Source: Acidobacteriaceae bacterium (lineage in GTDB: Bacteria > Acidobacteriota > Terriglobia > Terriglobales > Acidobacteriaceae). Taken from it: a stretch of 58,650 bases of DNA. Where the stretch lies: positions 31,191 to 89,840 of the forward strand of contig PKXU01000073.1 of the NCBI GenBank assembly GCA_003132445.1. The letters are read 5' to 3'. Under the pieces are notes generated by a model. The model was not told the DNA's origin. It saw only the letters and a program-made list of their open reading frames with translations, and ran no database searches. This document shows positions 2,851-29,128 of the stretch, piece by piece; the stretch's first letter is position 1, and each line of letters begins with the position of its first letter. The translations under genes were made by a program, and so were the position numbers.

Positions 2851-2957
2851 AGCGGACCTCAGACCTCAGACGACGGACCTCGACGTTAGCCTCGAAGCTT
2901 TGGGAGCTGAGGTCAGAAGGCCGAGGGTCCCAGGGTCCGAGGTCCGACGCCCGTCCT
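2851..2957. repeat. Family C intergenic inverted repeat, copy 1
   Basis: The gap between the PilZ and AMIN genes is filled by imperfect 7-8-nt units of the type GGACCTCA on the left arm, and their complement (GAGGTCAG, GGTCCGAGGTCCG) on the right arm, around a central segment near 2895-2910. Folded, the two arms pair imperfectly. A second copy with the same unit logic lies at 5370-5440. Confidence 0.7.
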
Positions 2958-2983
2958 AACCACTTCTCTCGCAAGCATCGCAA

Positions 2984-4417
2984 GTGGTATGGTTCCTTCA
3001 AGCTTTCGAGGATGCCTTGCCGCGAACCGCTCTCCAATTTGTGTGCCTTGCCGTGGGGATAGCTCTTGTTGCCGTCTGGGTTGGGGCGCAAACTTTTGGC
3101 CCACCGCCACTGGTAAAGAGCGTTCGCATCATCCACGAACACGGTGTGCCGGTTGTGGAAATTTTATCCAGCGGCCCGGTCATTCCTGAAATACAGGTCC
3201 TTGATTCACCTCCGCGCTTAGTCATCGATTTGCCCAACTCACGCCTTGCGCTGATGCAGAAGCGGATCGCCGTTCAAAAAGAAAATATCCTCTCACTGCG
3301 CGTCAATCAGTATCAGCAAAGCCCTCCGGTAACGCGCATCGTTCTCGATTTGCTCGCGCCTTATGGATATTCTTGGGAGGGCGCGGGCACGCGCCTGCTG
3401 GTTCGTCTCAAGCCGCCGGAGGATGTCAATGCCAGCAAAAAATCGCCGACTCTACAGCCACCGACTGTTCCCGGGCTCTCGCTAAACGGCGCTCCGGCCG
3501 TACTTCCAGTCACCGGCGGGGCGGGCGCGCTGGTGCTGGCGGGAAGCCGACTTGGTTCCGGTTCAACGATCACGGCGGGCTCCGAAACGGCAATTCTCCG
3601 TTTGTCGCGCGGAGGAGAACTTCGCATCTGCCCAGGAACGAGCGTCTCAGTAACGCCCTCACAGACCAAGCGCGATCTGATGCTGGGCTTGGGAACCGGC
3701 GCAATTGAAGCGCACTATTCGTTGCGGGCTTCGGCCGATACTGTGCTCACTCCCGACTTCCGTATCCTGTTTGCCGGGCCGGGAGAGTTTCATTTCGCCA
3801 TCAGCGCTGATCCGCATGGCAATACTTGCGTGCGGGCACTCAAGGGAAACACGTCATCGGCGATCGTTTCAGAGTTGATCGGAGACCGGATTTATCAGGT
3901 CAAGCCGACCGAACAGGCGATGTTTCACTCTGGGCAGATCGACAAAGTTGATACGGATGTTCCGCTGGAGTGTGGATGTCCTCCGCCGTCTCCGCTCATG
4001 CGCGCCCAAGCTCCGTTTGCGCCGAACGTACCTGACTCCGAATTGCCGGCCAGGGCCCAAATCGGTAGCAGTGAAACTCCGGCTACATCTGCGGAAAATC
4101 CTTCTCTGGGCATGACCGCTTCGAACACGAAGTTGTCAAACGGACCGGAGACGGCGCCAGTGCCGGCTTCCCAGACCAACGAGGTTCATGTGCAGCTCGA
4201 TGCCCCACTAGTTTTTACTCCAAGGAATCGCGCAGCCAGCGCGTTGCCAGCCCCCGCGCAGGCCGCCAGAGATTTGCCGGTGGAGGATTCTCCGGCGCGT
4301 CAGGTGCATCTCGATACCGTGATTGATTCGCCAGTGCTGCCAGAAAAGCAAAGCAAGCCCGAGCATCGTGGTTTCTTCGGGCGCGTCAAAGGCTTTTTTT
4401 CTTCCGTCTTCGGCTGA
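2984..4417 (+). CDS. AMIN domain and FecR-like protein, exported
   Basis: The 477-residue protein begins with a hydrophobic segment ending near VGAQ (signal peptide), followed by an AMIN-type domain (about residues 40-135, with [12 protein letters not shown] and VTRIVLDL). A beta-rich FecR-like region follows (about 180-310). The second half is Pro/Ala/Ser-rich and low in complexity and ends in [19 protein letters not shown] domains target periplasmic proteins to the envelope or to peptidoglycan. The GTG at 2984 gives the longest form, but a TTG at 3017 has an AGGA just upstream and leaves a cleaner signal peptide, so it may be the real start. A TonB gene follows in the same direction. Confidence 0.78.
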
Positions 4418-4526
4418 GAATCTCTTCCTCAAATTTTTCGCCCCGGGAATCCTTTTCGAGCGGTCGCGCGTCATACGGCGAGTTGGGCTGAGATCGTACG
4501 CGACAACTCGTCGGCAGGAGTTCGCC

Positions 4527-5357
4527 ATGACCGCTGCATCTTCCGGACCGGGCCCCAATCTTTTTTCAATACTTTCAGGCGATAGCGGCGACCTGTATCG
4601 CACCAGGCGCGAGACTTTCGTCTTCTCGTTGCTCGCACAGGCCGCGATTCTGGGGCTGCTCATCTATTTCACGAGCTGTGTAATTCGCAACACTCCCGAA
4701 ATCTCCAGCCGTTTGCCGAAATTCAACGAGTTACAACGTGTGTTCTCGGGGCACAACGGTGGTGGAGGGGGCGGTCGCGACGTGATTCCGGCCTCGCACG
4801 GCAATCTTCCTAAGGCTTCGCTTGATACCCAGCTTGTGCCTCCGACAGTAATCCTTCCTAAGGAACCGCCGAAGCTTCCGGTGGAGCAGTCGGTGGTGGT
4901 AGCTCCGGAGGTCCAACTGCCGCCGGGCGGGCAGATCGGCGATCCCGCGTCGCAGTTCTCCCAGATGCTGTCCAACGGACCGGGTGGTCCCGGAGGAATC
5001 GGACCCGGCTGTTGCGATGGCATAGGACCTTCAAACGGCCCAGGAGTCGGGCCCGGTCCCTCCGAAATTTATCCGGCAGGAAAAATGGGTGTGACCGTTC
5101 CGCAGGTTATTTTTGATCCAGAGCCGAGTTTTTCTGACGAAGCGCGCAAAGCGAAAGCTCAGGGAATCGTGATGCTGGTGCTCGTCGTCGGAAAGGACGG
5201 GCGTCCGTACGATTTACGCATCGGGCAAAGTTTGGGTATGGGTTTGGACGAAAAGGCGATCGAGGCCGTACAGCGCTGGCGCTTCCGACCAGCCACTCTC
5301 AACGGCCAGCCGGTGGCAACGCAGATCGCGGTCCAAGTAGATTTTCGCCTATACTGA
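4527..5357 (+). CDS. TonB family energy-transducing protein
   Basis: The 276-residue protein has one N-terminal membrane segment (about residues 33-53), a Gly/Pro-rich periplasmic spacer with GGGGGG and GPGG runs, and a C-terminal TonB domain (about 190-276) with the typical VQRWRFRPATLNGQPV and a final aromatic VDFRLY. TonB proteins pass proton-motive energy from ExbB/ExbD to outer-membrane receptors; a candidate receptor is encoded at 38857. The start was set at the ATG at 4527 because GGCAGGAG lies 6 nt upstream; the frame is open further upstream but overlaps the previous gene. No exbB or exbD is present in the window. Confidence 0.88.
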   Translation: MTAASSGPGPNLFSILSGDSGDLYRTRRETFVFSLLAQAAILGLLIYFTSCVIRNTPEISSRLPKFNELQRVFSGHNGGGGGGRDVIPASHGNLPKASLDTQLVPPTVILPKEPPKLPVEQSVVVAPEVQLPPGGQIGDPASQFSQMLSNGPGGPGGIGPGCCDGIGPSNGPGVGPGPSEIYPAGKMGVTVPQVIFDPEPSFSDEARKAKAQGIVMLVLVVGKDGRPYDLRIGQSLGMGLDEKAIEAVQRWRFRPATLNGQPVATQIAVQVDFRLY

Positions 5358-5369
5358 GGCGAGCCAGGA

Positions 5370-5440
5370 AGGACATCGGACATCAGAGCTCGGAATCGGA
5401 CTCAGCTCGGCTAAAGTCCGAAGTCCGACGTCTGACGACG
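5370..5440. repeat. Family C intergenic inverted repeat, copy 2
   Basis: The convergent gap between the TonB gene and the YtxH-like gene contains GGACATCGGACATC on the left arm and AGTCCGAAGTCCGAC on the right arm, again 7-8-nt units in tandem and inverted to each other. Because both flanking genes end here, the element could act as a two-way terminator. Confidence 0.65.
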
Positions 5441-5446
5441 CTTTTC

Positions 5447-5761
5447 TTAGCTCCGATTGATCGCGCGTCTCAGGGGCTCGACCTTTTCCCGCAGATCATC
5501 GGCGATTTCGGCGCCTCGCGCGGCCGCGTCGCGAACTCGCTCGCCGGCTGCGCGCACGCGGTCCTTGGCCTCGTCCGCCCAATCGTCAAGAGCGCCCTTA
5601 GCGTCTTTATATCCACGTTGCAGATCGCGGCGCATCTGTTTGCCAGTTTTGGGCGCCAGCATGAGCGCGACCAAAGCTCCGGCGCCTAAACCTATCAGCA
5701 AAAACGTGACTGCTACACCGACGCTGCTGCCTTCTGAAGATTCGTAATTTCCGCTTGACAT
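5447..5761 (-). CDS. YtxH-like membrane-anchored stress protein
   Basis: The 104-residue protein has a single N-terminal membrane segment (about residues 14-36, with the GLGAGALVALMLAP hallmark), then KTGKQMRRDL and a long charged amphipathic helix rich in Ala, Arg and Asp. This is the pattern of YtxH-domain proteins, which are small envelope-associated proteins of unclear function. The ATG at 5761 has GAGGT 7 nt upstream; the open frame extends 20 codons further but without a better start. Confidence 0.8.
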   Translation of the reverse strand: MSSGNYESSEGSSVGVAVTFLLIGLGAGALVALMLAPKTGKQMRRDLQRGYKDAKGALDDWADEAKDRVRAAGERVRDAAARGAEIADDLREKVEPLRRAINRS

Positions 5762-6045
5762 GATAATGACCTCAATTTTTCCGCCCGGGAAAAAACCAGG
5801 CAATTTACCGAAGCTGCCCACACCTGCGGCGACAGTTTGATTCTAGTCCTGTTACTCGGCCTCGGCGAATCCAGAAAATAAGGAATGGACCGCGCTCAAC
5901 TTCGATGAGTTCGCGGTCGGGAAGGTTTCTTTTCCGACGCAGCTCAGTGTAAAATAATGCTTTAGCCCTCGTGGCGGCGGAACGCTTTGGTTCGCCTGTC
6001 TTCTGCCGGTTTGCACCACAATCGTACAAGGAGAATTTTCAAGCG

Positions 6046-6606
6046 ATGTCGATCCCTGCCACTCAGCTTCGTCCTGGCATGATCATCAAGCACAATAATG
6101 ATCTGCACTCCGTTTTCAGTGTTGAACACCGCACGCCCGGCAACCTGCGCGCCTTTATTCAGGCGAAGCTGCGCAATCTGCGTACCGGAGCCATGTTCGA
6201 ACACCGTTTTCGCTCGCCCGATCCCATCGAAAAAGTGAACGTGGACGAAGTCGAAATGCAGTTCCTCTACGCTGACGGCGACAGCTATTACTTCATGGAC
6301 ACCACGAACTACGAGCAGACCCATTTGAGCAAGGAAATCCTGGGCGATGCTGTCGATTACCTGATCGCCAACCTGGAAATCAAAGTGGAATTTTTCGACG
6401 GCAAGGCGGTGGGGATCGAGCTGCCCCAAACTGTAATCCTGACCGTGGTCGAGACCGAGCCGGGACTGAAGAGCGCCACTGCATCCAGCGTGACTAAGGC
6501 CGCCAGGACCGAAACTGGACTCGTGGTGCAGGTGCCGCCCTTCATCAACGAAGGCGAAAAAATTAAGGTCGATACCTCGGAGGGCGCATATCTGTCGCGC
6601 GCGTAA
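6046..6606 (+). CDS. efp: Translation elongation factor P
   Basis: The 186-residue protein has the normal three-domain EF-P length and ends with the C-terminal domain signature region (TETGLVVQVPPFINEGEKIKV). EF-P enters the ribosome E site and rescues stalling at polyproline. The start ATG has AAGGAG 12 nt upstream (6028-6033). The loop that contacts the P-site tRNA reads EHRTPGNLRAF, so the residue equivalent to the modified Lys34 of E. coli EF-P is Asn33. The usual lysine (EpmA/B or YmfI type) or arginine (EarP type) target is therefore missing. No modification enzyme gene is seen in the window. Confidence 0.96.
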   Translation: MSIPATQLRPGMIIKHNNDLHSVFSVEHRTPGNLRAFIQAKLRNLRTGAMFEHRFRSPDPIEKVNVDEVEMQFLYADGDSYYFMDTTNYEQTHLSKEILGDAVDYLIANLEIKVEFFDGKAVGIELPQTVILTVVETEPGLKSATASSVTKAARTETGLVVQVPPFINEGEKIKVDTSEGAYLSRA

Positions 6607-6610
6607 GGCC

Positions 6611-6716
6611 ATTGCTGATTGTTGATTGTTAATTTTTGATTGCTGATTGAAATCTTAAATACGCTTCGGAGTCATGGGCTTTTCAATCAACAATCAGAAA
6701 TCAACAATCAGCAATC
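6611..6716. repeat. Family A intergenic inverted repeat, copy 1
   Basis: Between efp and the acylphosphatase gene, the left arm (6611-6653) is built of TGATTGT/TGATTGC-type units. The right arm (6679-6716) is its reverse complement, built of AATCAACAATCAG units. The 25-nt centre is unrelated to that of the other copies. Three further A sites occur at 10951, 19050 (half) and 20225. Confidence 0.85.
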
Positions 6717-6726
6717 GACTCAAGGC

Positions 6727-7026
6727 ATGAGTTCCACCGAGAATTCAACTCTTACTCGCCGCTTTCTGGTCCGCGGACGCGTCCAGGGCGTTGGTTTCCG
6801 CTGGTTCGTCGAACGCGAGGCGCACATCCTGAGCATCGCCGGATGGGTGCGTAACAATCACGATGGCAGCGTGGAAGTTCTGGCCCAGGGGACTCGCGAC
6901 CAGCTTTCTGGATTGCATGCCCGCCTGCGCGACGGGCCACGCGCGGCTCGCGTGGATGCGGTCGAAGTGTCCGACGCCAGTCCGGTCGCCGGATTAAATT
7001 CATTTCGCATTGAAGGAGCGTGGTAG
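6727..7026 (+). CDS. acyP: Acylphosphatase
   Basis: The 99-residue protein carries the acylphosphatase signature VRGRVQGVGFRWFV, with the active-site Arg, and the second signature GWVRNNHDGSVEVLAQG, with the catalytic Asn. It hydrolyses carboxyl-phosphate bonds such as acetyl phosphate. The frame is open back into the repeat element, but the first ATG beyond the repeat (6727) gives a normal-length enzyme. The stop codon is directly followed by the ATG of apt, whose ribosome-binding site lies inside this gene, so the two are co-translated. Confidence 0.93.
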   Translation: MSSTENSTLTRRFLVRGRVQGVGFRWFVEREAHILSIAGWVRNNHDGSVEVLAQGTRDQLSGLHARLRDGPRAARVDAVEVSDASPVAGLNSFRIEGAW

Positions 7027-7578
7027 ATGCCATCGTCCGCCGTCCCGGCCATGGATGCAGATCACTTGAAGAAACTGATTCGCGAGATCCCTGATTTCCC
7101 GAAGAAAGGGATTCTGTTTTACGACATCACGACTCTGCTGAAGGATAAGACGGGATTCGCCACGCTGATCGACAAACTCGCCGAACATTACATATCGCAA
7201 GATATCGATCTGGTGCTGGGCATGGAAGCTCGCGGTTTCATCTTCGCGCCCGCACTGGCCTATCGTCTAGGTGCCGGATTCGTTCCCGTGCGCAAGCCCG
7301 GCAAACTTCCCGCCGAATGTGTGAAATATGACTACGCCCTCGAGTATGGCACCAATTCGCTGGAGATTCACAAGGATGCGATTCAGAAAGGGCAGCGCGT
7401 CCTGATTGTAGACGACCTCTTGGCCACGGGCGGCACTGCCGAAGCAACGGCCAAACTGGCGGAAATGCTTGGCGCCAAGATCGCGGGCCTGGGATTTGTG
7501 GTGGAGCTCGAATTCCTAAAGGGTCGGGACAAGCTCAGGAACTACGATGTAATGTCGCTTTTGTGTTACGACAAATAG
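7027..7578 (+). CDS. apt: Adenine phosphoribosyltransferase
   Basis: The 183-residue protein has the PRPP-binding motif [14 protein letters not shown] (about residues 123-136) and the N-terminal APT signature [15 protein letters not shown]. It converts adenine and PRPP to AMP in purine salvage. The ATG abuts the acylphosphatase stop, with GAAGGAG upstream. A strong hairpin at 7606-7631 lies just after the stop. Confidence 0.95.
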
Positions 7579-7605
7579 GGTTACATAAAATGGCTACATG
7601 AAAAG

Positions 7606-7631
7606 GGCCGGCGCTGTTGACAGCTCCGGCC
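7606..7631. terminator. Hairpin between convergent genes, probable terminator
   Basis: GGCCGG-C-GCTG, loop TTGA, CAGC-T-CCGGCC forms a strong stem with one mismatch, 27 nt after the apt stop. The right side is followed by ATCTT rather than a clean T run. The left side is preceded by AAAA, so on the minus strand the hairpin is followed by TTTTCAT. It may end transcription in both directions. Confidence 0.6.
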
Positions 7632-7661
7632 ATCTTAAACTCTGTACTGAAATTCAATCGC

Positions 7662-7919
7662 CTAGCGCAACACTCTCGCCACGATCAGCGCGATTCCTGC
7701 CCATACGCTGGCGCTAAATGCAGCGGAAAGAGCCAATCCTGAGATCACGCTGTGACGGACCTCTCGGTTACTCCCGGCTTCGTCCTCAAGCCAGGACGGT
7801 GTGAATCCAATTTCTCCCGAAACTCCACTCGTCGCGGCCCAGGAATCCTGAATCGCGGTTCTAGCGTGTATCCCGTTGGTGCTTGCTTGGGGGGACAGCT
7901 GCAAGACTTTGTAGCTCAA
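7662..7919 (-). CDS. Small hypothetical membrane protein
   Basis: This 85-residue protein is not recognised. It has one C-terminal hydrophobic segment (about residues 57-82) ending in ARVLR, and a polar N-terminal half. The start is taken as the TTG at 7919 because GAGGAGGT lies 6 nt upstream; an ATG nine codons earlier (7946) lies before that Shine-Dalgarno sequence and is unlikely. It ends convergently with apt. Confidence 0.5.
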   Translation of the reverse strand: MSYKVLQLSPQASTNGIHARTAIQDSWAATSGVSGEIGFTPSWLEDEAGSNREVRHSVISGLALSAAFSASVWAGIALIVARVLR

Positions 7920-8155
7920 CGAAGCACCTCCTCGAATTTGGTTCATTCAGGGCCGTATTTCAATCCCAGCCCAAGTCGCTCAATATGAGGTCTATCCTTT
8001 CAACCGGGTTGCCGACTTTCCTTGCTGCCGTAAGAATTCCACTTTCATTCCTTGCATTGCAATGAGCCGCGGAGAACGAGTGGCGAAATTCTGCCTGATC
8101 CGGTATCCCCTTGGTATACAGGAAAACCCTGATTTGCGATAGTTGGATTCGGACA

Positions 8156-8413
8156 TTAATCCTCTGAGAGCAACAATTGGGAGTCTTTGCGCAAGTAACC
8201 CTTCCGCCGGAACCAATCCTCCATCGCATCTTTGAGTTGGTCCACCGGCACGCTGGAACCGATCTCCATGCGCCCGTCGGAAAGCGGAAGAGTATCGTCG
8301 AAGACGCTGGCGTTGGTGAAGTTGCGCATGGAGAAGCTATCGAGCCACTTGAGCGGACAGGGAAGCTTGCGGCCATTCTCTTGATACTCGACTCGAATCT
8401 TGCGTGCGAACAT
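8156..8413 (-). CDS. Hypothetical protein, 85 residues
   Basis: The product starts at MFARKIRVEYQENG and is soluble and charged, with no membrane segment or known motif. It reads like a compact alpha/beta protein, with a predicted helix around VDQLKDAMEDWFRRKGY. The open frame extends upstream to 8485, but that part is Pro- and Arg-rich and unlike a natural N-terminus. No clear ribosome-binding site is visible. A distinctive sequence without stops argues for a real gene, but the evidence is limited. Confidence 0.5.
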   Translation of the reverse strand: MFARKIRVEYQENGRKLPCPLKWLDSFSMRNFTNASVFDDTLPLSDGRMEIGSSVPVDQLKDAMEDWFRRKGYLRKDSQLLLSED

Positions 8414-8761
8414 AAGTCGATTTAACCACAGGACGGCAGGCGCGGGCGGAGGAGAGACGCGGAGCAAAAAGGCCATGCTGCGCACGGCAGACAGCCGAGG
8501 GCGGCTGTCTCAACATATGACTCATCAATGCTCATGTTTCGATAGGCGGTTTCCTGTCTGACCTGAGCCGAGGCCGGTTGCAGCGCTCCAAAGCTGGCAA
8601 GCTCGGCCATCTCAAAACAGGGCTGTCGCATCCACGGCTCCAGATACCTTCTCTCAGGTGTCTAAACTCACGTAGGGGAATCGTCGCACGCAAGAGCAGC
8701 GCCGCCATTCGTTCTTTTTTTGACGCACTTTGTTGACGGTGACCCGCTTTATGGAGGAGTC
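8414..8761. other. Intergenic region upstream of the DUF4139 gene
   Basis: This divergent gap of about 350 nt lies between a hypothetical and the DUF4139 gene and should hold both promoters. Nothing with a convincing -35/-10 pair was found. A run of seven T (8713-8719) precedes the DUF4139 gene. No coding potential beyond short out-of-phase frames is apparent. Confidence 0.4.
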
Positions 8762-10948
8762 ATGCGCTCTATGAAAACCGCCGTTTTGTGGTTGGCGTTC
8801 GCCGTAGTCTCATCTGGCCAATCTTCATTCGCTCAACTTTCCATCAACCCATCTGCTACGCCGGCATCATCGCCGGACTCGGCCGCCCGGCTGCCGGTGA
8901 CCCACGTGATTCTCTACAAGAATGGCGTTGGCTACTTCGAACATTCTGGTCATGTTCGCGGCAACCAGGACGTTGACGTCGACTTCACCACCGCGCAACT
9001 GAACGATGTACTGAAGTCGCTAACCGTTCTCGATCTAGGGAAAGGACGCATTACCGGCGTCAGCTACAACTCGGCTGCGCCGCTGGAGCGTCGCCTCGGT
9101 TCGCTGCGTCTGCCGGTAGGAGAAAACCCCACCACGGCGCAGTTTCTCGATGCTCTGCGTGGCGCAAGGCTGGAGGTACGTAACGGCTCCGAAAGTGCTA
9201 CCGGACGCCTGTTAAGCATTGAAGAGAGGGATTTGCCGGGGAAAGATAATCAGAAGATCACACTGACGCAGATCTCTGTCGTAAGTGACAGCGGCGAAGT
9301 GCGCATCTTTGACCTCACTCCGTCCACCAGCGTTCGTGTAGTGGAGAAAGAAGTAACGGACGAAGTAGGCAAGTATCTCGGGCTGGTCGCATCGACCCGC
9401 GATCAGGATGTGCGGCGCATGACCATTTCTACCGCGGGAGAAGGCGAGCGTGGCCTTCTGGTCAGCTATATCAGCGAGGTGCCGGTGTGGAAGAGCACGT
9501 ATCGAATCGTGATTCCGAGCGACGGCAAGCCGCTGCTGCAGGGGTGGGCCATCGTCGATAACACGGTTGGCGAGGACTGGAAAGATGTTGAGTTGTCGCT
9601 GGTCGCGGGAGCGCCGCAATCGTTCCTGCAGGAATTATCGCAGCCCTACTACACGCGGCGGCCAGTGGTGGCGCTGCCGCAAAATGCGATGCTCACACCG
9701 CAAACGCATGAGGCGACGATGGAGGAGCAGGCGCAGGTTGTGAACGGCGAACTAACGACCCCCGCGGCGGCTCCGCAGGGTGTGGTCGGCGGGGTTGCGG
9801 GCGGTTCGATCGGCGGACCGGTCGGAATAGCCGGGCGAAAGCTTAAAAAGAGGGTTTCCCTCTCCGGCAGCGGTGGAGGGGTTGGGGGTGGGAACCTCAA
9901 GGCCTGGCTCGCCAGTCCCGATGCCACTCAAGTAGCGGACAATCTCGAGTCTGGAACTACTGTGGGCGAAACTCGTGATCTTGGCGACCTGTTCGAATAC
10001 AAGCTCAAAGATCGGATTACGATCCGCAAGAACCAATCGGCGCTCGTTCCGATCCTGCAATCGCGCATCGACGCGGAAAAAGTTTCGGTATGGAATCCTT
10101 CCGAAAGCTCCGTCCTGCGGGCGCTGTGGGTGAACAATACCAGCAATCTCACGCTCGACGGCGGCAGCTTCAACGTGCTCGAAGGCGACGCCTTTGCCGG
10201 CGAAGGGTTGATGGACGCGATCAAGCCGGGCGAGAAGCGGTTGCTCTCGTATGCGGCCGACCTCGGCGTGCTGGTCGATGCCAAACAAAAAAACGACAAT
10301 CAGCGCGTCACCAAAGTGATCATCGCGCACGGCCTGATGACGCAGTCGACCGAGGAACGCCAGGAAAATACTTATACGATTCGCAACCGCGATTCGTCCT
10401 CGCGCCAGGTTGTGATTGAACATCCGGCGCGTGCTGGCTGGAAACTTACTGACGACGAAAAGCCGGCGGAGAGTTCCGCATCCTTCCACCGCTTCCGCCT
10501 CACCGTGGAACCGATGAAGACGACCACGCTACTCGTGAAAGAATACCGTCCCATCAGCAACCGGTACCAGCTTTCGAACGTGACCGACAATGACATCAAA
10601 TTTTTCCTTGAGCAAAAAATGATCAATGCCGACGTGGAAAAGGCGCTGCGGCACATCGTCGCGCAAAAGAATGATGTTGCCGGGCTCGATGCCGTGATTG
10701 GCGCTCGCCGCTCCCAGGTGACAAGCATCGCCGACGATCAACAGCGAGTCCGCGAAAACATGAAGGCGTTAAAAGGCAGCGCCGAAGAAAAAGCTCTGGT
10801 CGAACGCTACGTTCGTGAACTCAATGAGCAGGAGGACCGCGTTCAGTCTCTGCGGCGCGAGATTGCCGAGACGCAACAGAAGCGGGATGCCGCTCAGAGC
10901 ACGCTCAACGGAATGATTGAAGCGCTGCAGATGGAGGTGACGCTGTAG
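8762..10948 (+). CDS. DUF4139 domain-containing exported protein
   Basis: The 728-residue protein has a signal peptide ending near SSFAQ. Its N-terminal part (HVILYKNGVGYFEHSG) and the long central beta-rich region (YISEVPVWKSTYRIV, LQGWAIVDNTVGEDWKDVELSLVAG) match the DUF4140/DUF4139 'mucoidy inhibitor A-like' architecture. A Gly-rich insert (about residues 350-385) interrupts the domain, and the C-terminal 110 residues are a charged coiled coil. Function is unknown; the protein is probably periplasmic. The start ATG at 8762 has GGAGG 4 nt upstream, and an earlier in-frame ATG at 8720 lacks one. Confidence 0.85.
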   Translation: MRSMKTAVLWLAFAVVSSGQSSFAQLSINPSATPASSPDSAARLPVTHVILYKNGVGYFEHSGHVRGNQDVDVDFTTAQLNDVLKSLTVLDLGKGRITGVSYNSAAPLERRLGSLRLPVGENPTTAQFLDALRGARLEVRNGSESATGRLLSIEERDLPGKDNQKITLTQISVVSDSGEVRIFDLTPSTSVRVVEKEVTDEVGKYLGLVASTRDQDVRRMTISTAGEGERGLLVSYISEVPVWKSTYRIVIPSDGKPLLQGWAIVDNTVGEDWKDVELSLVAGAPQSFLQELSQPYYTRRPVVALPQNAMLTPQTHEATMEEQAQVVNGELTTPAAAPQGVVGGVAGGSIGGPVGIAGRKLKKRVSLSGSGGGVGGGNLKAWLASPDATQVADNLESGTTVGETRDLGDLFEYKLKDRITIRKNQSALVPILQSRIDAEKVSVWNPSESSVLRALWVNNTSNLTLDGGSFNVLEGDAFAGEGLMDAIKPGEKRLLSYAADLGVLVDAKQKNDNQRVTKVIIAHGLMTQSTEERQENTYTIRNRDSSSRQVVIEHPARAGWKLTDDEKPAESSASFHRFRLTVEPMKTTTLLVKEYRPISNRYQLSNVTDNDIKFFLEQKMINADVEKALRHIVAQKNDVAGLDAVIGARRSQVTSIADDQQRVRENMKALKGSAEEKALVERYVRELNEQEDRVQSLRREIAETQQKRDAAQSTLNGMIEALQMEVTL

Positions 10949-10950
10949 GG

Positions 10951-11050
10951 AATTGTTGATTGATCATTTCTGATTGTTGATTGAAGATCGTAAGACGCCA
11001 GCGGCGGCCGTTTTCAATCAACAATCAAGAATCAAAAATCAACAATTGAT
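10951..11050. repeat. Family A intergenic inverted repeat, copy 2
   Basis: This element fills the convergent gap between the DUF4139 and pckA stop codons almost to the base. The left arm (10951-10985) has AATTGTTGATTG and TGATTGTTGATTG units. The right arm (11011-11050) has CAATCAACAATCAA units. The centre (about 10986-11010) is GC-rich and unique. Confidence 0.88.
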
Positions 11051-12631
11051 CTAACGCTGCACCTTCGGTCCGGCCGCTTTAACCTCCGGCGGCGCGTCGA
11101 AGTTCTCAAAGTTCTTAGCGAAGCGGTTGCGCAGTTCTTCGGCGGCTCGATCATACGCCGCTTTATCCGGCCACGCGTTGCGAGGATTCAAGAGGTATGG
11201 AGGCACACCGGGGCATTCTTTGGGAATGCTGAAACCGAATGTCGGCTCGATTTCAAATTCTTCTCGAATCAGTTCACCCTCGACCGCCGCGTCAACCATG
11301 GCGCGCGTATGCGGGATCGCCGTTCTCCTGCCTACGCCGTACGGTCCGCCCTGCCAGCCGGTGTTCACCAGCCAGCATTGCGCGTTGTGCTCGCGCAATC
11401 GGCGGCCAAGCATTTCCGCATACGTTTTCGGAGGCAGCGGCAGGAACGGCGAGCCGAAACAAGTCGAGAAAGTAGCCGTGGGTTCTTTGACGCCGGCTTC
11501 GGTGCCGGCCAGCTTCGCGGTATATCCCGACAAGAAGTGATACATCGCCTGTTCCGGCGTCAGCTTCGAAATCGGAGGCAGTACGCCAAACGCATCCGCA
11601 GTGAGAAATACGACATTTTTCGGATGCCCGCCGATGCCCGGAATCACGGCATTCTCGATGAAATCCACGGGATACGCAGCGCGCGTGTTTTCCGTCTTGC
11701 TGTCGTCGTTGTAGTCGGGAATACGCGTGTGCGGATCGAGAGTAACGTTCTCAAGCACGCAACCGAAGCGCAGCGCGTTCCAGATCTGGGGCTCGTTTTG
11801 CTTCGAAAGCTTAATACATTTGGCGTAGCATCCACCTTCGAAGTTGAAAACGCCCTCGGCGCTCCACCCGTGCTCGTCATCGCCGATCAAGTCGCGTGAG
11901 GGATCGGCTGACAGTGTTGTCTTGCCTGTGCCGGAAAGTCCGAAGAACAAGGCGCTTACTCCGTCGCGGCCTACATTGGCCGAACAATGCATGGGAAAGA
12001 CGTTCCGAGGAGGCAGCAGAAAGTTCATCACGCTGAAGATGCACTTCTTCATCTCGCCCGCATACGATGTTCCGCCTATCAAAACCGTACTCCGCGTGAA
12101 GTTCAACAGGATAAAAACTTCCGAGGCTACGGCATCCCGCTCGGGGTCGGCCTTGAACTCCGGAGCCGCGATTACTGTGAAATCCGGTCGATGATGCTTG
12201 AGTTCCTGGGCGGTGGGACGCAAAAATAACTGCCGTACAAAGAGATTGTGCCAGGCATATTCGTTCACAATGCGCACCGGCAGGCGGTAAGAGGGATCCG
12301 CGCCGCAAAACAGATCCTGCACAAAAAGTTCGCGTCCTCGCAGATGTTCCATCACCCGGTCATAAAGCGCGTCAAACTTTTCCGGCTCAAAAGGGGCATT
12401 CACAGCCCCCCATGCCACGGTGTTCGCCGTGGTCTTGTCTTTCACGATGAACTTATCCTTCGGTGAGCGCCCGGTGCGATTGGTATACCCGACCAGCGTT
12501 CCGTTAGCCGCCAATTTCGCCTCGTTGCGCCGAATGGAGTGCTCCACCAGTACTGCCGGAGACAGATTGAAGTGGGTCCGGCCTTCGTTCAGCAACGCGG
12601 CAACATCGCTGACGTGTACCGTGGTAGCCAT
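11051..12631 (-). CDS. pckA: Phosphoenolpyruvate carboxykinase (ATP)
   Basis: The 526-residue protein has the ATP-type PEPCK hallmarks: the kinase-1a P-loop GLSGTGKTT (231-239), the metal-binding LIGDDEHGW just after it, and the oxaloacetate-binding NRTGRSPKDK near residue 51. It decarboxylates and phosphorylates oxaloacetate to PEP at the start of gluconeogenesis. Length is normal for the family. A GAGGAGAACCC sequence lies just before the ATG. It is monocistronic as far as can be seen, ending against a family A repeat. Confidence 0.96.
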   Translation of the reverse strand: MATTVHVSDVAALLNEGRTHFNLSPAVLVEHSIRRNEAKLAANGTLVGYTNRTGRSPKDKFIVKDKTTANTVAWGAVNAPFEPEKFDALYDRVMEHLRGRELFVQDLFCGADPSYRLPVRIVNEYAWHNLFVRQLFLRPTAQELKHHRPDFTVIAAPEFKADPERDAVASEVFILLNFTRSTVLIGGTSYAGEMKKCIFSVMNFLLPPRNVFPMHCSANVGRDGVSALFFGLSGTGKTTLSADPSRDLIGDDEHGWSAEGVFNFEGGCYAKCIKLSKQNEPQIWNALRFGCVLENVTLDPHTRIPDYNDDSKTENTRAAYPVDFIENAVIPGIGGHPKNVVFLTADAFGVLPPISKLTPEQAMYHFLSGYTAKLAGTEAGVKEPTATFSTCFGSPFLPLPPKTYAEMLGRRLREHNAQCWLVNTGWQGGPYGVGRRTAIPHTRAMVDAAVEGELIREEFEIEPTFGFSIPKECPGVPPYLLNPRNAWPDKAAYDRAAEELRNRFAKNFENFDAPPEVKAAGPKVQR

Positions 12632-12952
12632 GGGTTCTCCTCAAAAAACAGGCGCAAAACGCCAAACAAACTATTGTCCCTCAAAACTCATGCTGCTGCC
12701 AAATTCTTGTGCCTGAGTGCAGCCGTTTTTCAGGCGGAACGAATAGCCTGCCCATTAGTCGTGTCTATGGGAGATCCCTCAGCGGCTGAAGTACGCCGCG
12801 TTTCGGGACGACCGCGTCGTACGAGAATAAATTTAAGCCAGATATCTGCCCCCCTGTTTATTGGAGAAGATTCACGACGGGCTGGATTGCTTGGTCCGGC
12901 GGGCTTCGTCTTTGAAGAAAGGCTGGAGGACAACAGGAGCGCGGCAGAGACG
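12632..12952. other. Non-coding gap upstream of pckA
   Basis: About 320 nt between the pckA start and the end of the small zinc-ribbon gene, both on the minus strand. It should contain the pckA promoter. I see no gene-like frame; the frames open here lack start signals and are biased in composition like antisense frames. No clear terminator hairpin is visible. Confidence 0.35.
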
Positions 12953-13135
12953 TTATTCCGTGGTCTTATAGCCGCAGGCCTTGCGGCAATCGTCACAGTA
13001 CATCAATCCGTCGTCACAAACTCGGATATCAATCACGGATTGACATAGGCAGCAGTACTTCCCGCAATCACAGGAACTCTCGGGCAGTTCGCATTGCGCG
13101 CAAAGATATTTGGCGGAGCCAGTTCCGGTATTCAT
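12953..13135 (-). CDS. Small cysteine-rich zinc-ribbon-like protein
   Basis: The 60-residue protein has ten cysteines. Pairs such as LCAQC, CDCGKYCCLC and YCDDC suggest one or two treble-clef or zinc-ribbon sites. It begins MNTGTGSAKYLCAQC; the frame is open 24 codons further upstream, but that part is atypical. No strong ribosome-binding site is seen. It lies divergently from murE with about 126 nt between the starts. The role is unknown; binding to nucleic acid or protein is typical for such small zinc proteins. Confidence 0.6.
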   Translation of the reverse strand: MNTGTGSAKYLCAQCELPESSCDCGKYCCLCQSVIDIRVCDDGLMYCDDCRKACGYKTTE

Positions 13136-13247
13136 GAAAATACTGTAGCGTGCTCGATGCTCAGCAAAAAAATGACCTTGGTAATCGCCATGAGGCAAAG
13201 ACCGCAAGAGAATTTTTTCTTCGCCAACACCCGATTCCTGCGTGGCC

Positions 13248-13253
13248 TATAAT
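13248..13253 (+). promoter_or_regulatory. Consensus -10 box just before murE, possible leaderless start
   Basis: TATAAT occurs 8 nt before the murE ATG (13262). No Shine-Dalgarno sequence lies between them. If this is the -10 box, transcription would begin within a few bases of the ATG, giving a leaderless or nearly leaderless mRNA. The -35 region is not convincing. Confidence 0.4.
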
Positions 13254-13261
13254 TCCCAGCA

Positions 13262-16194: not shown

Positions 16195-16276
16195 TTCACC
16201 ACGGAGGCACAGAGAGACAGAGAAGATCAAATTCCATTTTTTGCTCCTCTCCGTGCCTCTGTGGCTCCGTGGTGAA
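16195..16276. repeat. Family B intergenic inverted repeat, copy 1
   Basis: Between murF and mraY, the left arm reads TTCACCACGGAGGCACAGAG and continues with GACAGAG units; the right arm is its complement (CCGTGCCTCTGTGGCTCCGTGGTGAA as a series of 7-8-nt units). The centre is short and AT-rich, about 25 nt around ATTCCATTTTTTG. It lies inside what is probably one operon. Confidence 0.88.
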
Positions 16277-16313
16277 AATTGGGATTGAAGTTTGTAGGGA
16301 AGACGGAGGCTGA

Positions 16314-17447: not shown

Positions 17448-17453
17448 GAAGAC

Positions 17454-17614
17454 TTCACCACAGAGACACAGAAGCACAGAGAAAAAAAGCAAGAACAACG
17501 AACAAAAAGCAAGCGACAAGAAAAGATCATCTGAGCGACGCACGATTGATGGCAATGGCGAGTGGTTGAAGGAGATAGCATTGATTCTCCGTGTCTCTGT
17601 GACTCTGTGGTGAA
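17454..17614. repeat. Family B intergenic inverted repeat, copy 2, long centre
   Basis: The left arm (17454-17485) is TTCACCACAGAGACACAGAA followed by GCACAGAG. The right arm (17584-17614) is the complement, ending CTGTGGTGAA. The centre is about 100 nt, much longer than in copy 1. The arms are near-identical to copy 1 at the outer end and diverge toward the centre. Confidence 0.88.
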
Positions 17615-17623
17615 GTGTTCTGA

Positions 17624-19018: not shown

Positions 19019-19049
19019 CCACTCGTAAGGACGAACCTGCCCGAACCAA

Positions 19050-19116
19050 GACAATCAACAATCAAAATTCAACAATCAACAATTCCTTCACCGTGCCTTC
19101 GCCTCTCCGTGGTGAA
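19050..19116. repeat. Joined half-elements of families A and B
   Basis: Positions 19050-19085 hold only the right-arm type of family A (CAATCAACAATCAAAATTC), with no left arm nearby. Positions 19087-19116 hold only the right-arm type of family B (ending CTCCGTGGTGAA). They lie end to end between murD and ftsW, so this looks like a recombined or eroded junction of two elements. Confidence 0.75.
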
Positions 19117-19127
19117 ATGAACTTCTC

Positions 19128-20219: not shown

Positions 20220-20224
20220 AATGC

Positions 20225-20333
20225 AATTGCTGATTGTTGATTTTTGATTGCTGATTTGACCTTTCTCTTTCAACAGAAGAGCCGCCCACTTGGCCTTTCA
20301 ATCAACAATCAAGAATCAAAAATCAGCAATCAT
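20225..20333. repeat. Family A intergenic inverted repeat, copy 4
   Basis: Between ftsW and murG, the left arm (20225-20259) has AATTGCTGATTGTTGATTTT units and the right arm (20296-20333) has TCAATCAACAATCAAGAATC units. The 35-nt centre is unlike that of other copies. The murG start lies only about 15 nt further on. Confidence 0.88.
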
Positions 20334-20347
20334 TTATAGTGGCCTTC

Positions 20348-21448
20348 ATGCGGGCAATCGTAGCGGGCGGCGGCACCGGCGGACACGTTATTCCCGCTCT
20401 GGCTATTGCCAATCAGCTCAAGAAGACTTATGCCGCGGAGGTACTGTTTATTGGTACCGCGCGCGGCATCGAGAACCGGCTTGTGCCCGCGGCCGGATTC
20501 CCGCTGCAGCTGGTGCGCGTTGGTGCATTGAAAAATGTCAGCTTAACGACGCGCTTGAAGACGGCCTTCGACTTGCCGCGAGCCGGGTGGGATGCGGGCC
20601 GCATGCTCAATCAGTTCGCACCCGACGTAGTGATTGGCGTGGGCGGGTACGCTTCCGGCCCAGCAATGTTGGCGGCGGTGGTCAAACAAATTCCAACGCT
20701 GGCCTTCGAGCCCAACGTTGTTCCCGGCTTCGCCAATCGTATGGTCGCGCGATTTGTTTCGGGGGCGGCGGTGCACTTCCAGGAAACGGCGAAATATTTT
20801 CGCCACGCGGAGGTTACAGGTGTCCCGGTGCGGCAGGCTTTTTTCGAAATCGCGCCCAAGCGTGGCGGCGTTCCAACTTTGCTGGTGTTCGGTGGAAGCC
20901 AGGGCGCGCACGCCATCAATGATGCGATGATTCGCTGTTTGCCGGTCTTGCAGCGCGAGGCCCCCGGCATTCACATCATTCACCAGACGGGCGAGCGTGA
21001 CTATAATGGCGCGCTGGCGGCGTATCAGTCCGTACAGAATAAGGCTGGATCGGAGCACGTATTCAGCTTCGAAGTTTCCAAGTTTATCGACGACATGCCG
21101 GCGGCTTTTGCGCGCGCCGATCTGCTGGTATGCCGTTCGGGCGCAAGCACGGTCGCCGAAATTGCGGCAGCGGGAAAACCCGCCGTGTTCGTTCCGTTTC
21201 CGCGCGCGGCGGATGATCATCAGCGCGTGAACGCCGAAGCCCTGGCACGTCATGGAGCTGCCGTAGTTGTGGAGGAATCGAAGCTGGAGGGCGTCTGGCT
21301 GGCCGAGACGATTGCGGCCCTGCTGCAAGACTCGCAGCGTCTGCAGCGCATGAGCCAGGCCGCGCGCGAGTTGTCGCATCCCAACGCCGCCCGGGATATT
21401 GCTGCAATGGCTGCGAGAATCGCGGGAATTGAGAGCGTGTCAGCATGA
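20348..21448 (+). CDS. murG: UDP-GlcNAc:lipid I N-acetylglucosaminyltransferase
   Basis: The 366-residue GT28 protein has the N-terminal [15 protein letters not shown] loop and the C-terminal donor-binding region [25 protein letters not shown]. It adds GlcNAc to lipid I on the inner face of the membrane, giving lipid II. The ATG at 20348 gives the standard N-terminus MRAIVAGGG; a GTG three codons earlier is also possible. No clear Shine-Dalgarno sequence lies between the family A repeat and the start. The stop overlaps the next gene (ATGA). Confidence 0.96.
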
Positions 21449-21666
21449 TTCGGCGAGCACTTTTAGCCATCCTGGGACTAGCGGTGACTATTGCCGGCTT
21501 GGGATGTTTCGGGTACACCTTCTTCTCCACCGCGGAGCCGAGCTTCGGGCCGCCAACGTCTACTGAGAAGGCGCTCACCGTAGCGATCCCCGCGTTGGGG
21601 ATTGCCTTGGGCGGAGTCGGCATGTGGCTGCTACGTCGTTCTCTGAGCCGCGGAGAGCCGCGTTAA
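21445..21666 (+). CDS. Small two-span membrane protein between murG and murC
   Basis: The 73-residue protein has two hydrophobic segments (about residues 5-27 and 44-64), separated by a short polar loop with [12 protein letters not shown], and a basic C-terminus [11 protein letters not shown] do not recognise it. The ATG overlaps the murG stop, so translation is coupled, and murC starts about 30 nt later. Tight placement suggests a small envelope or division accessory protein, but that is inference. Confidence 0.65.
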
Positions 21667-21698
21667 TCCGGGTGGATCCGTGGCCCAGAAGTTGACTT

Positions 21699-23114
21699 AT
21701 GTTCGCGAAAATTCAACGCATCCATTTCGTAGGCATCGGCGGTATCGGCATGAGCGGCATTGCCGAGGTGCTGCTCAATCTTGGCTATAAAGTTTCCGGC
21801 TCTGACCTGAAAAGTTCTTCAGTGACCCAGCGGCTCGCCGGGCTGGGTGCGGCAATCTATGAAGGACATCGCGCAGAAAATATCGCCGGCGCCGAAGTTA
21901 TCGTTACCAGTTCCGCCATCGCCATCGAGAATCCAGAAGTTATCGCAGCGCACAACCTTCACATTCCCGTGATCCGGCGCGCCGAGATGCTGGCTGAATT
22001 GATGCGCCTGAAATACGGCATCGCCATCGCCGGCATGCATGGCAAAACGACCACAACCTCAATGGTGGCGGCCGTATTGGCTGCCGGTGGCCTCGATCCG
22101 ACCGTGGTAGTGGGCGGCCGCGTAGATGCCCTGGGATCGAATGCGCGCCTGGGAAAGTCGCACTACCTGGTGGCTGAAGCCGACGAGAGCGACCGCAGCT
22201 TTCTTAAGTTAACCCCAATACTCTCTGTCGTCACCAACATCGACCGCGAGCACATGGACACTTACCGCAACATGCGCGACGTGAAGAAAACGTTTCTCGA
22301 CTTCATGGACCGCGTGCCGTTTTACGGAATGATCGTCGCCTGCAATGACGATCCGCTGCTGCGGCGCCTGTTGCCCGATGTTCAGCGCCGCACCGTGACC
22401 TACGGAACCAGGCGCGGCTCCGACTTCCTGATCAAACTTGATGCCAAGAAAGAAATCTCTGCCGGCGATTCGCGTCCGTTGAGCCGCTTCCGCGTCAGCT
22501 ATCAAAAAAAAGATCTGGGCGAATTCACGCTGCACGTGCCCGGAGTGCACAACGTCCTGAATGCGACTGCTGCGATCGCCGTCGGCGTGGGTCTCGATGT
22601 TGAGGTTGAGTCGATCCGCACGGCGCTCGATCAGTTCCGCGGGGTTGACCGCCGGTTCCAGTTGCGCGGACGCGCCGGGGGCGTCAGCGTCATCGACGAT
22701 TACGGCCATCACCCCACTGAAATCAAGGCCACGCTGGCCGCAGCGCGGCAGTGCGGCTTCCGCAAAATTCACGTTATTTTTCAGCCGCATCGCTATACTC
22801 GCACCCGCGACCTGATGGAAGAATTCACTACCGCTTTTGGCGACGCGGATTCACTGTTCGTCCTTGACATCTACGCCGCGAGCGAGAAGCCCATCGAAGG
22901 CATCACCGGAGAAGTCCTGGCGCAGCGCATTCGGGAAAAAAGCGCGAAGAGTGTTCGGTACGTCAGTTCCCCGGCCGAAGGCGTCGATGCCGCTGCGGCG
23001 GTCGCGCAAGGTGGCGATATGATTCTCACCCTCGGCGCCGGCAGTGTCTCGCAGTTCGGGTCCATGATTCTCGAGAAGTTGAAAGAACGGGAGGTTGCGC
23101 ATGCAGGCAGCTAG
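21699..23114 (+). CDS. murC: UDP-N-acetylmuramate:L-alanine ligase
   Basis: The 471-residue protein starts IQRIHFVGIGGIGMSGIAEVL, the MurC nucleotide-binding hallmark. It has the ATP loop GMHGKTTTTSM and the central domain motif EADESDRSFL. It adds L-Ala to UDP-MurNAc, the first ligase step. The 3' end overlaps the next gene by 14 nt. murB, which makes its substrate and often follows murC, is absent here. Confidence 0.96.
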   Translation: MFAKIQRIHFVGIGGIGMSGIAEVLLNLGYKVSGSDLKSSSVTQRLAGLGAAIYEGHRAENIAGAEVIVTSSAIAIENPEVIAAHNLHIPVIRRAEMLAELMRLKYGIAIAGMHGKTTTTSMVAAVLAAGGLDPTVVVGGRVDALGSNARLGKSHYLVAEADESDRSFLKLTPILSVVTNIDREHMDTYRNMRDVKKTFLDFMDRVPFYGMIVACNDDPLLRRLLPDVQRRTVTYGTRRGSDFLIKLDAKKEISAGDSRPLSRFRVSYQKKDLGEFTLHVPGVHNVLNATAAIAVGVGLDVEVESIRTALDQFRGVDRRFQLRGRAGGVSVIDDYGHHPTEIKATLAAARQCGFRKIHVIFQPHRYTRTRDLMEEFTTAFGDADSLFVLDIYAASEKPIEGITGEVLAQRIREKSAKSVRYVSSPAEGVDAAAAVAQGGDMILTLGAGSVSQFGSMILEKLKEREVAHAGS

Positions 23115-27792: not shown

Positions 27793-27817
27793 TTGAAGTC
27801 GAGGGATTTCATACAAG

Positions 27818-29038
27818 ATGGCGAATCAGCAGGGAAGTTTCCTCACCGCGATCGACGTAGGCAGCGCCAAGACCTGCGCGCTGATGGCGGAGTTCACTGA
27901 TGCCGGCCTACGCTACCGGGGTCATGGCGTCGCCGAATCCAGAGGCTCGCGCAAAGGCGTGATCGTCGAACTCGACAAGGCCGTGGCCGCGATTCAGAAG
28001 GCGGTTGAAGCCGCCGAAGACATCGCCGGCGCTGCGGTCGAACAAGCCATCGTCGGCATCGGAGGAGTGCATGTTCGCGGCATTAACAGCCACGGCGGCA
28101 TCACCGTGGGCACGCGACCGCGAGAAATCGGACGCGATGAGATCAAGCAGGCGGTCGACCGCGCCCGTGCGATTCCGCTGCCCAACGATCGCGAAATTCT
28201 TCATCTGCTGCCCCAGGAATTCATCCTCGACGATCAGGCCGGCGTGCATGACCCGCTAGGCATGATGGCGGCTCGCCTCGAAGTTCGCGTCCACATGGTA
28301 ACGGCGGCGACCAGTGCCACCCAAAACGTGATTACGGCTGTCAATCGCGCAGGCGTGCATGTGGATGACACCGTATTCGAACCGCTGGCGGCTGCCGACT
28401 CGGTGTTGCGCAATGACGAGCGGGAAATGGGCGTATGCCTGGCAGATGTTGGCGCGGGTTCGACTGAGCTCGTGGTCTTTCAGCAGGGCGCCGTGGTTCA
28501 CACAGGAGTGATTCCGGTTGGCGGCGATCACTTTACCAGCGATTTGTCGGTCGGCCTTTGCACGCCTCTTGCGGAAGCGGAAAAGATCAAAAAAATATAC
28601 GGCAACGCTATCGTCACTCTCATTCCAGAGGGCAATGAAGTCGAAGTTCCGTCCGTGGGCGATCGTCCATCACGGCTCATGCCGCAGCGTCTGGTCGCTG
28701 AAATCTTGGAGCCGCGCGCGCGCGAGCTTTTCGAAATGATGCGCGAGAACTTGCGCCAGAGCGGCATGTTCGATATTTGCCTCGCCGGAATCGTGCTCAC
28801 AGGAGGCGCGTCGCGGCTGCCCGGAATCTTCGACGTAGCGGAGTCGGTCTTGCGCCGTTCGGTCCGGCTTTCGTGGCCGGCCCCGCTGGCGAAAATGCCA
28901 TCAACGCTGTCCGAGCCGGAGTTTGCCACCGTGCTCGGAATGGTGAACTATGGCCAACGCGCCCGCGTCGCGCGTGGCCTGCAAGAAGATCGGTGGGGAT
29001 CGAGATTGAAAGCACTATTGGTCGGTAAGGGAGCGTAG
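27818..29038 (+). CDS. ftsA: Cell-division protein FtsA
   Basis: The 406-residue actin-like ATPase has phosphate-1 loop IDVGSAKTCALM, the 1C domain following it, phosphate-2 loop LADVGAGSTELVVF and the adenosine motif VLTGGASRLPGI. FtsA tethers FtsZ to the membrane through a C-terminal amphipathic helix; here the C-terminus RWGSRLKALLVGKGA is a plausible one. It starts 25 nt after ftsQ. A family D repeat separates it from ftsZ. Confidence 0.95.
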   Translation: MANQQGSFLTAIDVGSAKTCALMAEFTDAGLRYRGHGVAESRGSRKGVIVELDKAVAAIQKAVEAAEDIAGAAVEQAIVGIGGVHVRGINSHGGITVGTRPREIGRDEIKQAVDRARAIPLPNDREILHLLPQEFILDDQAGVHDPLGMMAARLEVRVHMVTAATSATQNVITAVNRAGVHVDDTVFEPLAAADSVLRNDEREMGVCLADVGAGSTELVVFQQGAVVHTGVIPVGGDHFTSDLSVGLCTPLAEAEKIKKIYGNAIVTLIPEGNEVEVPSVGDRPSRLMPQRLVAEILEPRARELFEMMRENLRQSGMFDICLAGIVLTGGASRLPGIFDVAESVLRRSVRLSWPAPLAKMPSTLSEPEFATVLGMVNYGQRARVARGLQEDRWGSRLKALLVGKGA

Positions 29039-29040
29039 GG

Positions 29041-29128
29041 CAAAGTTTCAAAGTTTCAAAGCTTCAAAGCTTCAACGTTTCAAGGCAAAGACGCTGAAAC
29101 TCTGCAGCTCTGAAACTTTGAAACTTGA
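29041..29128. repeat. Family D intergenic inverted repeat
   Basis: Between ftsA and ftsZ, the left arm is CAAAGTTTCAAAGTTTCAAA, continuing with GCTTCAAAGCTTCAACG units. The right arm is GAAACTCTGCAGCTCTGAAA followed by CTTTGAAACTTG. The unit is 8 nt (GTTTCAAA). The centre is about AGGCAAAGACGC. The ftsZ ribosome-binding site begins just after the right arm. Confidence 0.85.

Follow-up and report, generated by a model that had tools for sequence, protein, structure and literature searches.

Inverted tandem-unit elements in the gene gaps of an Acidobacteriaceae genome: probable gene-less miniatures of small one-gene mobile elements

How can the gaps between genes come to hold elements that share one design but differ in their sequences? 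This question is raised by a 58,650-nucleotide stretch of DNA from an Acidobacteriaceae bacterium (assembly GCA_003132445.1, 5.12 Mb in 203 contigs; contig PKXU01000073.1, C156 in our numbering, bases 31191-89840), which we refer to as the window. A preliminary description, made from the letters alone, reported nine gaps in the first 30 kb, several of them within the mur-fts gene cluster, in which an arm of tandem 7-8-nt units is followed by a unique centre and by the reverse complement of the arm, with four unrelated unit sequences (families A to D). We conclude that these elements are probably gene-less miniatures of small mobile elements that carry one gene between inverted tandem-unit arms, whose mobility we infer from the observations below. 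In the full element, which is about 450 bp long, two inverted copies of an arm of a few tandem units (7-10 nt over all families) enclose a gene of some 125 codons; gene-bearing forms are seen in the window's own genome, in its relatives and in distant bacteria.

Two kinds of small gene between inverted arms

The enclosed genes are of two kinds. The first encodes four-helix-bundle proteins (TIGR02436/PF05635, the 23S rRNA-intervening-sequence protein) and is mostly found with 7-nt units, and the second encodes GxxExxY proteins (TIGR04256/PF13366, PD-(D/E)XK superfamily) and is mostly found with units of 8-10 nt. In lists of matches to the family C arm, pairs spaced about 410-440 nt apart occur, and the interval contains a GxxExxY open reading frame (ORF) in L242, L243 and L244 (PF13366, E 1e-35 for L242 and 8e-39 for L244; TIGR04256, E 3e-36 for L242). 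Within the window's genus, all three examined C pairs of this spacing (two in G028, one in G001) hold such an ORF, the protein of G001 matching TIGR04256 with E 8e-47. Residues D82, E92 and K94, which we take to be the PD-(D/E)XK active site, are invariant in an alignment of seven GxxExxY proteins. A scan of 414 loci for tandem-armed pairs with loops >300 nt returned 63 rows, many of which are G+C-rich coding repeats or pairs that surround unrelated genes; a GxxExxY ORF is present in 6 of the 13 C-armed pairs among them, and in six of the seven whose loops measure 380-414 nt. In a profile scan, four of six GxxExxY matches pass the arm threshold, the other two having arms outside the searched range (L244) or with a lower period score (L191).

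The four-helix kind is represented in the window's own genome by an open gene between CAGTTCTCAGTTCTCAG arms (L025:1523-1870, found by the profile scan; PF05635, E 4e-39) and by a broken gene between 7-nt arms (L027:9990-10463), an 82-residue piece of which matches TIGR02436 with E 1e-16. Arms of 7-nt units also surround a four-helix-bundle ORF in G188 (L181; TIGR02436, E 4e-24). Gene-less copies built on the AGTTCTC unit of the L025 element are found in the same genome as that element (L006:7152, L032:6155, L034:6704 and L035:6738).

The link between arms and genes was tested in plasmid records, for which a tblastn search of PLSDB gave 8 GxxExxY and 16 four-helix records; 8/8 and 14/16, respectively, were examined. 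In these named plasmids, of four phyla, inverted tandem-unit arms frame 17 of the 22 genes (four-helix 13/14, GxxExxY 4/8), compared with 1 of 106 control genes of 100-153 aa, which were taken from Sulfotelmatobacter and G353 loci, different from the plasmids tested; the single framed control is an own-genome gene flanked by C arms. The arm units vary from record to record (e.g. TAGGGAG, GGTGACA, GGGAACA, AGTCAGG), so that it is the plan, and not the sequence, that is shared. Several of the plasmid genes have operon-like neighbours on both sides, such as fabD/fabG in Sphingomonas and radA and the gene after it in Bacteroides, and some four-helix genes lie amid CRISPR (clustered regularly interspaced short palindromic repeats) genes, between cas6 and cas4 in Anabaena (L422) and Pseudanabaena (L423), and flanked by cas10 and a Cmr3-family gene on a Picosynechococcus plasmid (L436).

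Other contents were also met. On contig C166 of the own genome, family C arms surround a roughly 149-codon ORF, neither GxxExxY nor four-helix (L035:10878-11453). The ORFs inside a B-armed pair whose loop measures 463 nt (L400) could not be linked to the class, no family search of these ORFs having been made. Viral contigs of IMG/VR have phage-like genes flanked by inverted arms of tandem units (L365:5569-7790, L369, L394-L398), and some of these contigs are near copies of one another. Single GxxExxY or four-helix queries gave no match in the viral contigs and an alignment query gave one locus; phage records gave no GxxExxY match.

Recurrence, niche and turnover

At a common threshold, hairpins numbered 22 in the own genome (745 kb), 48 in genus loci (438 kb) and 15 in other loci (652 kb); the own-genome densities are biased upward because some stretches were picked through earlier pattern matches. 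First-order Markov shuffles, one per set, gave none at the threshold used for real DNA. The elements recur elsewhere in the genome and in relatives, which agrees with the preliminary description. Among hairpins with arms of at least 22 nt, 16 of 21 in the own genome have an arm period of 7, 8 or 14; the corresponding figures are 23 of 45 in genus loci, where period 10 is also represented, and 1 of 9 in other lineages. Further own-genome units besides AGTTCTC are CGGAAGC, GGATTAG and GGACTTC, and in the mur-fts gaps of 26 loci no fewer than nine unit families occur as pairs. This abundance of families across genome, genus and samples agrees with the earlier suggestion that unrelated units on a single plan point to a shared process.

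The spread of family C is patchy and multi-copy. Its defined arm (CCAC-RGAG-N-CACRGAG-N-CACRGAG) occurs in the own genome, in G319 of the same family and in G353 of another family of the phylum. The pattern was found in 29 of 297 Acidobacteriota genomes (23 of the 166 genera), as many as 188 times in one genome, and in 39 of 288 genomes sampled from the phylum to which a Verrucomicrobiales genome belongs, two of these 39 (G622 and G388) resembling plain microsatellites by control counts. At least 120 IMG/VR stretches match it as well, in a collection that may contain host DNA. In 20-kb samples, C-positive genomes yielded 21 other tandem-armed hairpins in 315 kb (9/20 genomes) and C-negative genomes seven in 668 kb (6/40), some of the latter being poly-G or coding repeats. 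The copy numbers of B and C differ widely and are at most weakly correlated across 41 genomes (rho 0.26, p 0.10). The own genome also contains a non-tandem hairpin repeat around GCGGACGCATTCGTCCG (L007:6258-6362 and L023:18471-18562), which is perhaps an ordinary family resembling repetitive extragenic palindromic (REP) sequences.

The arms have a fixed polarity, one end nearly always pointing outward. Of the 231 C arms, 171 have an inverted partner within 350 nt, and so do 42 of the 91 B arms; the partner lies on the inner side in 206 cases and on the outer side in 7. The elements also occupy a distinct niche, as judged from our own gene calling, which is not a standard annotation. In the own genome, 16 are in co-directional gaps, 5 in convergent gaps, 2 in predicted ORFs and 1 at an end; none is in a divergent gap, a type that makes up 32% of the intergenic bases. 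The corresponding counts are 17 co-directional, 3 convergent, 0 divergent and 1 at an end in G353, where 4 of the 21 elements (periods 6, 11, 12 and 12) look REP-like and probably fall outside the class, and 34 co-directional, 1 convergent, 2 divergent and 1 at an end in the genus loci. In co-directional gaps with at least 60 spare bases, 15 of 22 elements lie no more than 30 nt from the upstream stop codon (5.9 expected). The earlier statement that no element lies within a gene is therefore nearly right, the two overlaps among 24 own-genome elements including a G+C-rich period-11 hairpin that is outside the class.

At fixed sites, one family is replaced by another. The mraY-murD gap holds family C in most loci, family B in L089 and L045, the CACGAAGG family in L092, L094 and L049, the CACGGAT family in L093, L096 and L100, and CAGTGGT in L101. 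L094 and L097 are 92.8% identical over 12.5 kb, yet they have different families in this gap. Homologous recombination was considered as the cause of this swap and rejected, unless a very short tract was exchanged, since the 100-nt windows flanking the gap are 89-100% identical right up to it on both sides. The murF-mraY element of L094 is absent from L097 but shared by other species, so L097 probably lost it. Within a genome, one family is found at several gaps more often than expected (17 vs 9.6, p 0.002). A miniature inverted-repeat transposable element (MITE) of 116-329 bp ending in AGGACTTACGCA (L220-L239, in G353 and G337) has an interior that varies between copies: by reading, nine have a C core (six by script pattern), the tenth has a CGCAAAG core and the eleventh a REP-like hairpin, and 5-bp target duplications accompany nine of these 11 distinct copies. 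At L144:17447 in G319, a CACGAAGG pair encloses a C pair in its loop. These nested C cores indicate that cores nest in, and swap between, other elements.

The elements of the window

The features of the window are collected in Table 1. An ungapped inverted-arm scan recovers six of the nine gaps (three of family B, the first of them at 6617-6716, two of C and one of D), and the arms of family A are gapped in both copies. When folded as single-stranded DNA, five gaps of families B, C and D (17448-17620 was too long and was left out) give z = -3.9 to -7.8, compared with +0.9 to -1.7 for six control gaps. The first copy of family A is weak, 22 of 200 shuffles being equally stable. In the murD-ftsW gap there is no inverted element, and z = 0.0. 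The description of nine gaps on one plan thus stands for most of them and fails for murD-ftsW, which has two single arms, while one family A copy is weak. FtsQ, FtsA and FtsZ are confirmed by Pfam, which places the family D element in ftsA-ftsZ as described. No gene lies inside the window's own copies, and an Rfam scan of the whole window at the gathering score matched none of the elements. The MurD protein of the window has Candidatus Sulfotelmatobacter and other Acidobacteriota records among its named relatives.

Table 1. Inverted tandem-unit elements and single arms in the window
Feature	Position	Location	Basis and remarks
Family A, unit ~GGACCTC	2851..2950		gapped inverted arms, weak; tandem rows, fold z -1.3
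Family A copy	5365..5440		gapped inverted arms; tandem rows, fold z -3.1
Family B, ATTGTTG, 7 nt	6611..6716	flanked by EF-P and acylphosphatase genes	inverted arms
Family B	10951..11047	fills the convergent gap preceding the PEPCK gene	arm scan, fold
Family C, CACRGAGN, 8 nt	16195..16276	murF-mraY	arm scan, fold
Family C	17448..17620	mraY-murD	spans the stop-to-start gap entirely; arm scan
Single B-like arm	19045..19084	murD-ftsW	kept across the genus
Single C-like arm	19088..19117	murD-ftsW	kept across the genus
Family B, period 7	20226..20330	ftsW-murG	arm scan, fold
Family D, GTTTCAAA, 8 nt	29043..29126	ftsA-ftsZ	arm scan, Pfam, fold

The leader preceding ftsW (19043-19127) and the orthologous gap in 22 other loci read GAACCAAaACAaTCAACA.TCA... 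and then CTCCgTGGTGAAATGAA. Across the genus, the ends of five other gaps are less conserved than this leader with its two single arms, which may be half elements domesticated as a pair. The sole Rfam match in the window is a group II intron piece (RF02005, 58119-58341, plus strand, E 6.5e-55) near the window end.

Origin of the elements and comparison with known systems

If the elements move, as we propose, they would settle between stop and start codons, and the small protein, or a host enzyme recruited by it, would act on the arms in trans, enabling gene-less copies to move. The most likely route would be that the GxxExxY protein cuts arm-bearing hairpins or targets in the gaps, and the four-helix kind would require a host enzyme for cutting. 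To our knowledge, four-helix proteins have no nuclease motif. Landing between stop and start would be tolerated since the insert may fold out of the transcript, as do the 23S rRNA intervening sequences cut by RNase III. Those sequences, with their PF05635-family protein, are a precedent for an insert excised from a transcript (PMC4990558).

It should be noted that several observations weigh against this proposal. No insertion of a window-type element was seen. The excess of target duplications in the own genome is weak: those of at least 6 nt occur in 3 of 41 elements (0.38 expected, uncorrected p 0.006), those of at least 5 nt in 5 of 41 (2.3 expected, p 0.08), and none reaches 7 nt; the clean 5-bp duplications belong to the outer AGGACTTACGCA MITE and not to the arms. 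No gene has been linked to families A, B and D, and 7 of the 13 long-loop C-armed pairs enclose nothing or other ORFs. The gene-bearing copy at L025 lies between divergent genes, next to a short masked stretch, and the centres of gene-less copies are dissimilar by eye. Among the plasmids, the unframed genes comprise four of the eight GxxExxY genes (Treponema, Fusobacteria, Prevotella and Persicobacter) and one of the 14 four-helix genes (Pseudanabaena PCC 7367), and the framed L436 and L437 are barely above the threshold. The C pattern is absent from all 26 genomes reached via other loci, three of them Acidobacteriota. Finally, the fold-out step gains no support, there being no excess of G.T mismatches.

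This last result also bears on the idea that selection keeps the elements as RNA hairpins that stabilise 3' ends, direct processing or act as attenuators, in which case foldability alone would count and the units could vary. Such a role would fit the proximity to stop codons, the lack of elements in divergent gaps of the own genome and G353, the strong folds, and the constancy of the plan where sequences differ at one site. However, 52 oriented hairpins contain 50 G.T and 48 A.C mismatches on the oriented strand, and the arms of ten orthologous C elements of the genus (two rows out of register) are no more alike within elements (0.807) than between them (0.813). The own, genus and G353 sets (5, 11 and 12 elements) show no within-element excess either; the excess present in a mixed set of 39 Verrucomicrobiota and IMG/VR elements is ascribed to its mixed lineages. 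Equal mismatch counts and the lack of arm covariation within single lineages argue that mRNA pairing is not the feature that is kept. Moreover, none of the 15 terminator-like sites in a consensus scan of 2000-21900, a range that does not reach the element at 29043, coincides with an element, and both the arm sequences common to several phyla and the genes between arms would be left unexplained. We therefore consider this role improbable, and the stability hairpins or attenuators suggested in the preliminary description are not supported as the conserved feature. Slightly less improbable, but still unlikely, is that the arms arise in place by slippage or template switching and that the small genes are passengers trapped between independent arms. 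The many unrelated units, slippage observed in one arm that is many units long (L238), the majority of own elements lacking target duplications and the unrelated genes also found between arm pairs would agree with this, whereas an identical three-unit C arm across families and phyla, the polarity of 206 to 7 and the recurrent tie to two gene families (17/22 vs 1/106) would not. Copying of element-specific outer flanks was not seen in single lineages either; birth by fold-back through such inverted flanks, which are present in the mixed set of 39 elements and absent from the single-lineage sets, was rejected.

A third possibility is that the elements are REP sequences or bacterial interspersed mosaic elements (BIMEs) mobilised by REP-associated tyrosine (Y1) transposases (RAYTs). 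The gene-end niche resembles that of REPs (PMC3733652), and the mean number of Y1_Tnp matches is higher in C-positive than in C-negative genomes (5.8 vs 2.45, p 0.0014). Against it, nine single arms fold with 0 to -2.9 kcal/mol, none beating its shuffles; the C copy number is unrelated to the Y1 count (rho -0.02); G203, G354 and G007, none of them a complete genome, are C-positive without a Y1 match; and a tandem-arm hairpin was found at 1 of 10 Y1 loci. We regard this as very unlikely, and RAYT/REP was rejected as the main driver on the grounds of arm folding, Y1 dose and hairpins at Y1 loci. The earlier guess of a REP-type nuclease target is nevertheless near the mark in one respect, because family C surrounds a PD-(D/E)XK superfamily gene in relatives, although REP/RAYT as such does not apply. 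As to loss of the hairpin nuclease SbcCD as a possible permissive factor, SbcD scores above the cut-off in none of the 24 C-positive genomes and in 4 of the 40 C-negative ones (p 0.29).

We thus favour small mobile elements and their gene-less miniatures. A wider reading, which we put forward tentatively and hold to be somewhat short of an even chance, is that they represent a large unrecognised bacterial class with tandem-unit inverted arms, one gene of about 125 codons (four-helix/S23p or GxxExxY) and swarms of miniatures, a class to which the intervening sequences and the heptamers of cyanobacteria and Xanthomonas would belong as special cases. The four-helix proteins match the bAvd profile weakly (E 1.5e-8 to 6e-4, below the profile cut-off), so that in this reading an RNA-templated route is conceivable. 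If verified, our view would give two widespread small protein families, GxxExxY and the four helix bundle / 23S rRNA-intervening-sequence protein, a context and a testable role; it would explain the origin of scattered heptamer and octamer repeats in many bacteria, show how operon gaps (mur, fts, fab, cas) are quickly rewritten with the genes intact, and make the descent of 23S rRNA intervening sequences from mobile elements, an old question, directly testable.

The preliminary description knew of no system with this design, which is too strong a statement. Inverted, convergent pairs of GGGAATC heptamers have been published for two Xanthomonas genomes (70 and 75 pairs); these repeats and the GGGGA(C/T)T repeats of Nostoc are tandem, lie between aligned ORFs and rarely between divergent ones, and are often <50 bp from a stop codon (PMC4692102). 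They share the tandem units, the inverted pairs and the gene-end niche with the present elements, while that work concerns one family, studied as a G-quadruplex; its authors find no general association with mobile elements, and its text does not contain the words "four helix" (PMC4692102). Among the matches listed in searches of open-access text, the exact unit strings led to three papers, unrelated by title, and an earlier report of the link between arms and genes may exist. The TAACTGA repeats of marine Beggiatoaceae are likewise intergenic heptamers scattered among distant taxa, but they are direct and mostly upstream of starts, with one inverted case (PMC4679880).

REP/BIME-RAYT systems are similar in being intergenic, at gene ends, arranged in inverted doublets and multi-copy, but REPs are palindromic themselves, whereas the single arms described here do not fold (PMC2817692, PMC3733652). 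As in MITEs, the termini are inverted repeats, here arms of fixed polarity, and as in Foldback-type elements the inverted ends consist of internal tandem repeats (arm period 7, 8 or 10). The Foldback-type element Galileo of Drosophila also has inverted ends with internal repeats, two-end or one-end remnants and exchange between copies; it is, however, far longer, eukaryotic and provided with a P-type transposase (PMC3573991). The gene-bearing forms can also be compared with the 23S rRNA intervening sequence, which in Coxiella burnetii is 428 nt long, contains an S23p ORF and is suspected to be of mobile origin (PMC4990558). Both are of similar size and have one PF05635 ORF and complementary ends, with a long stem in the intervening sequence (PMC4990558), inverted ends around such an ORF being found in L025, L181 and 13 of 14 plasmid four-helix genes. 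In contrast to the intervening sequences, which reside in rRNA, the present elements lie between protein genes, have arms of tandem units in many unit families, and are accompanied by gene-less miniatures.

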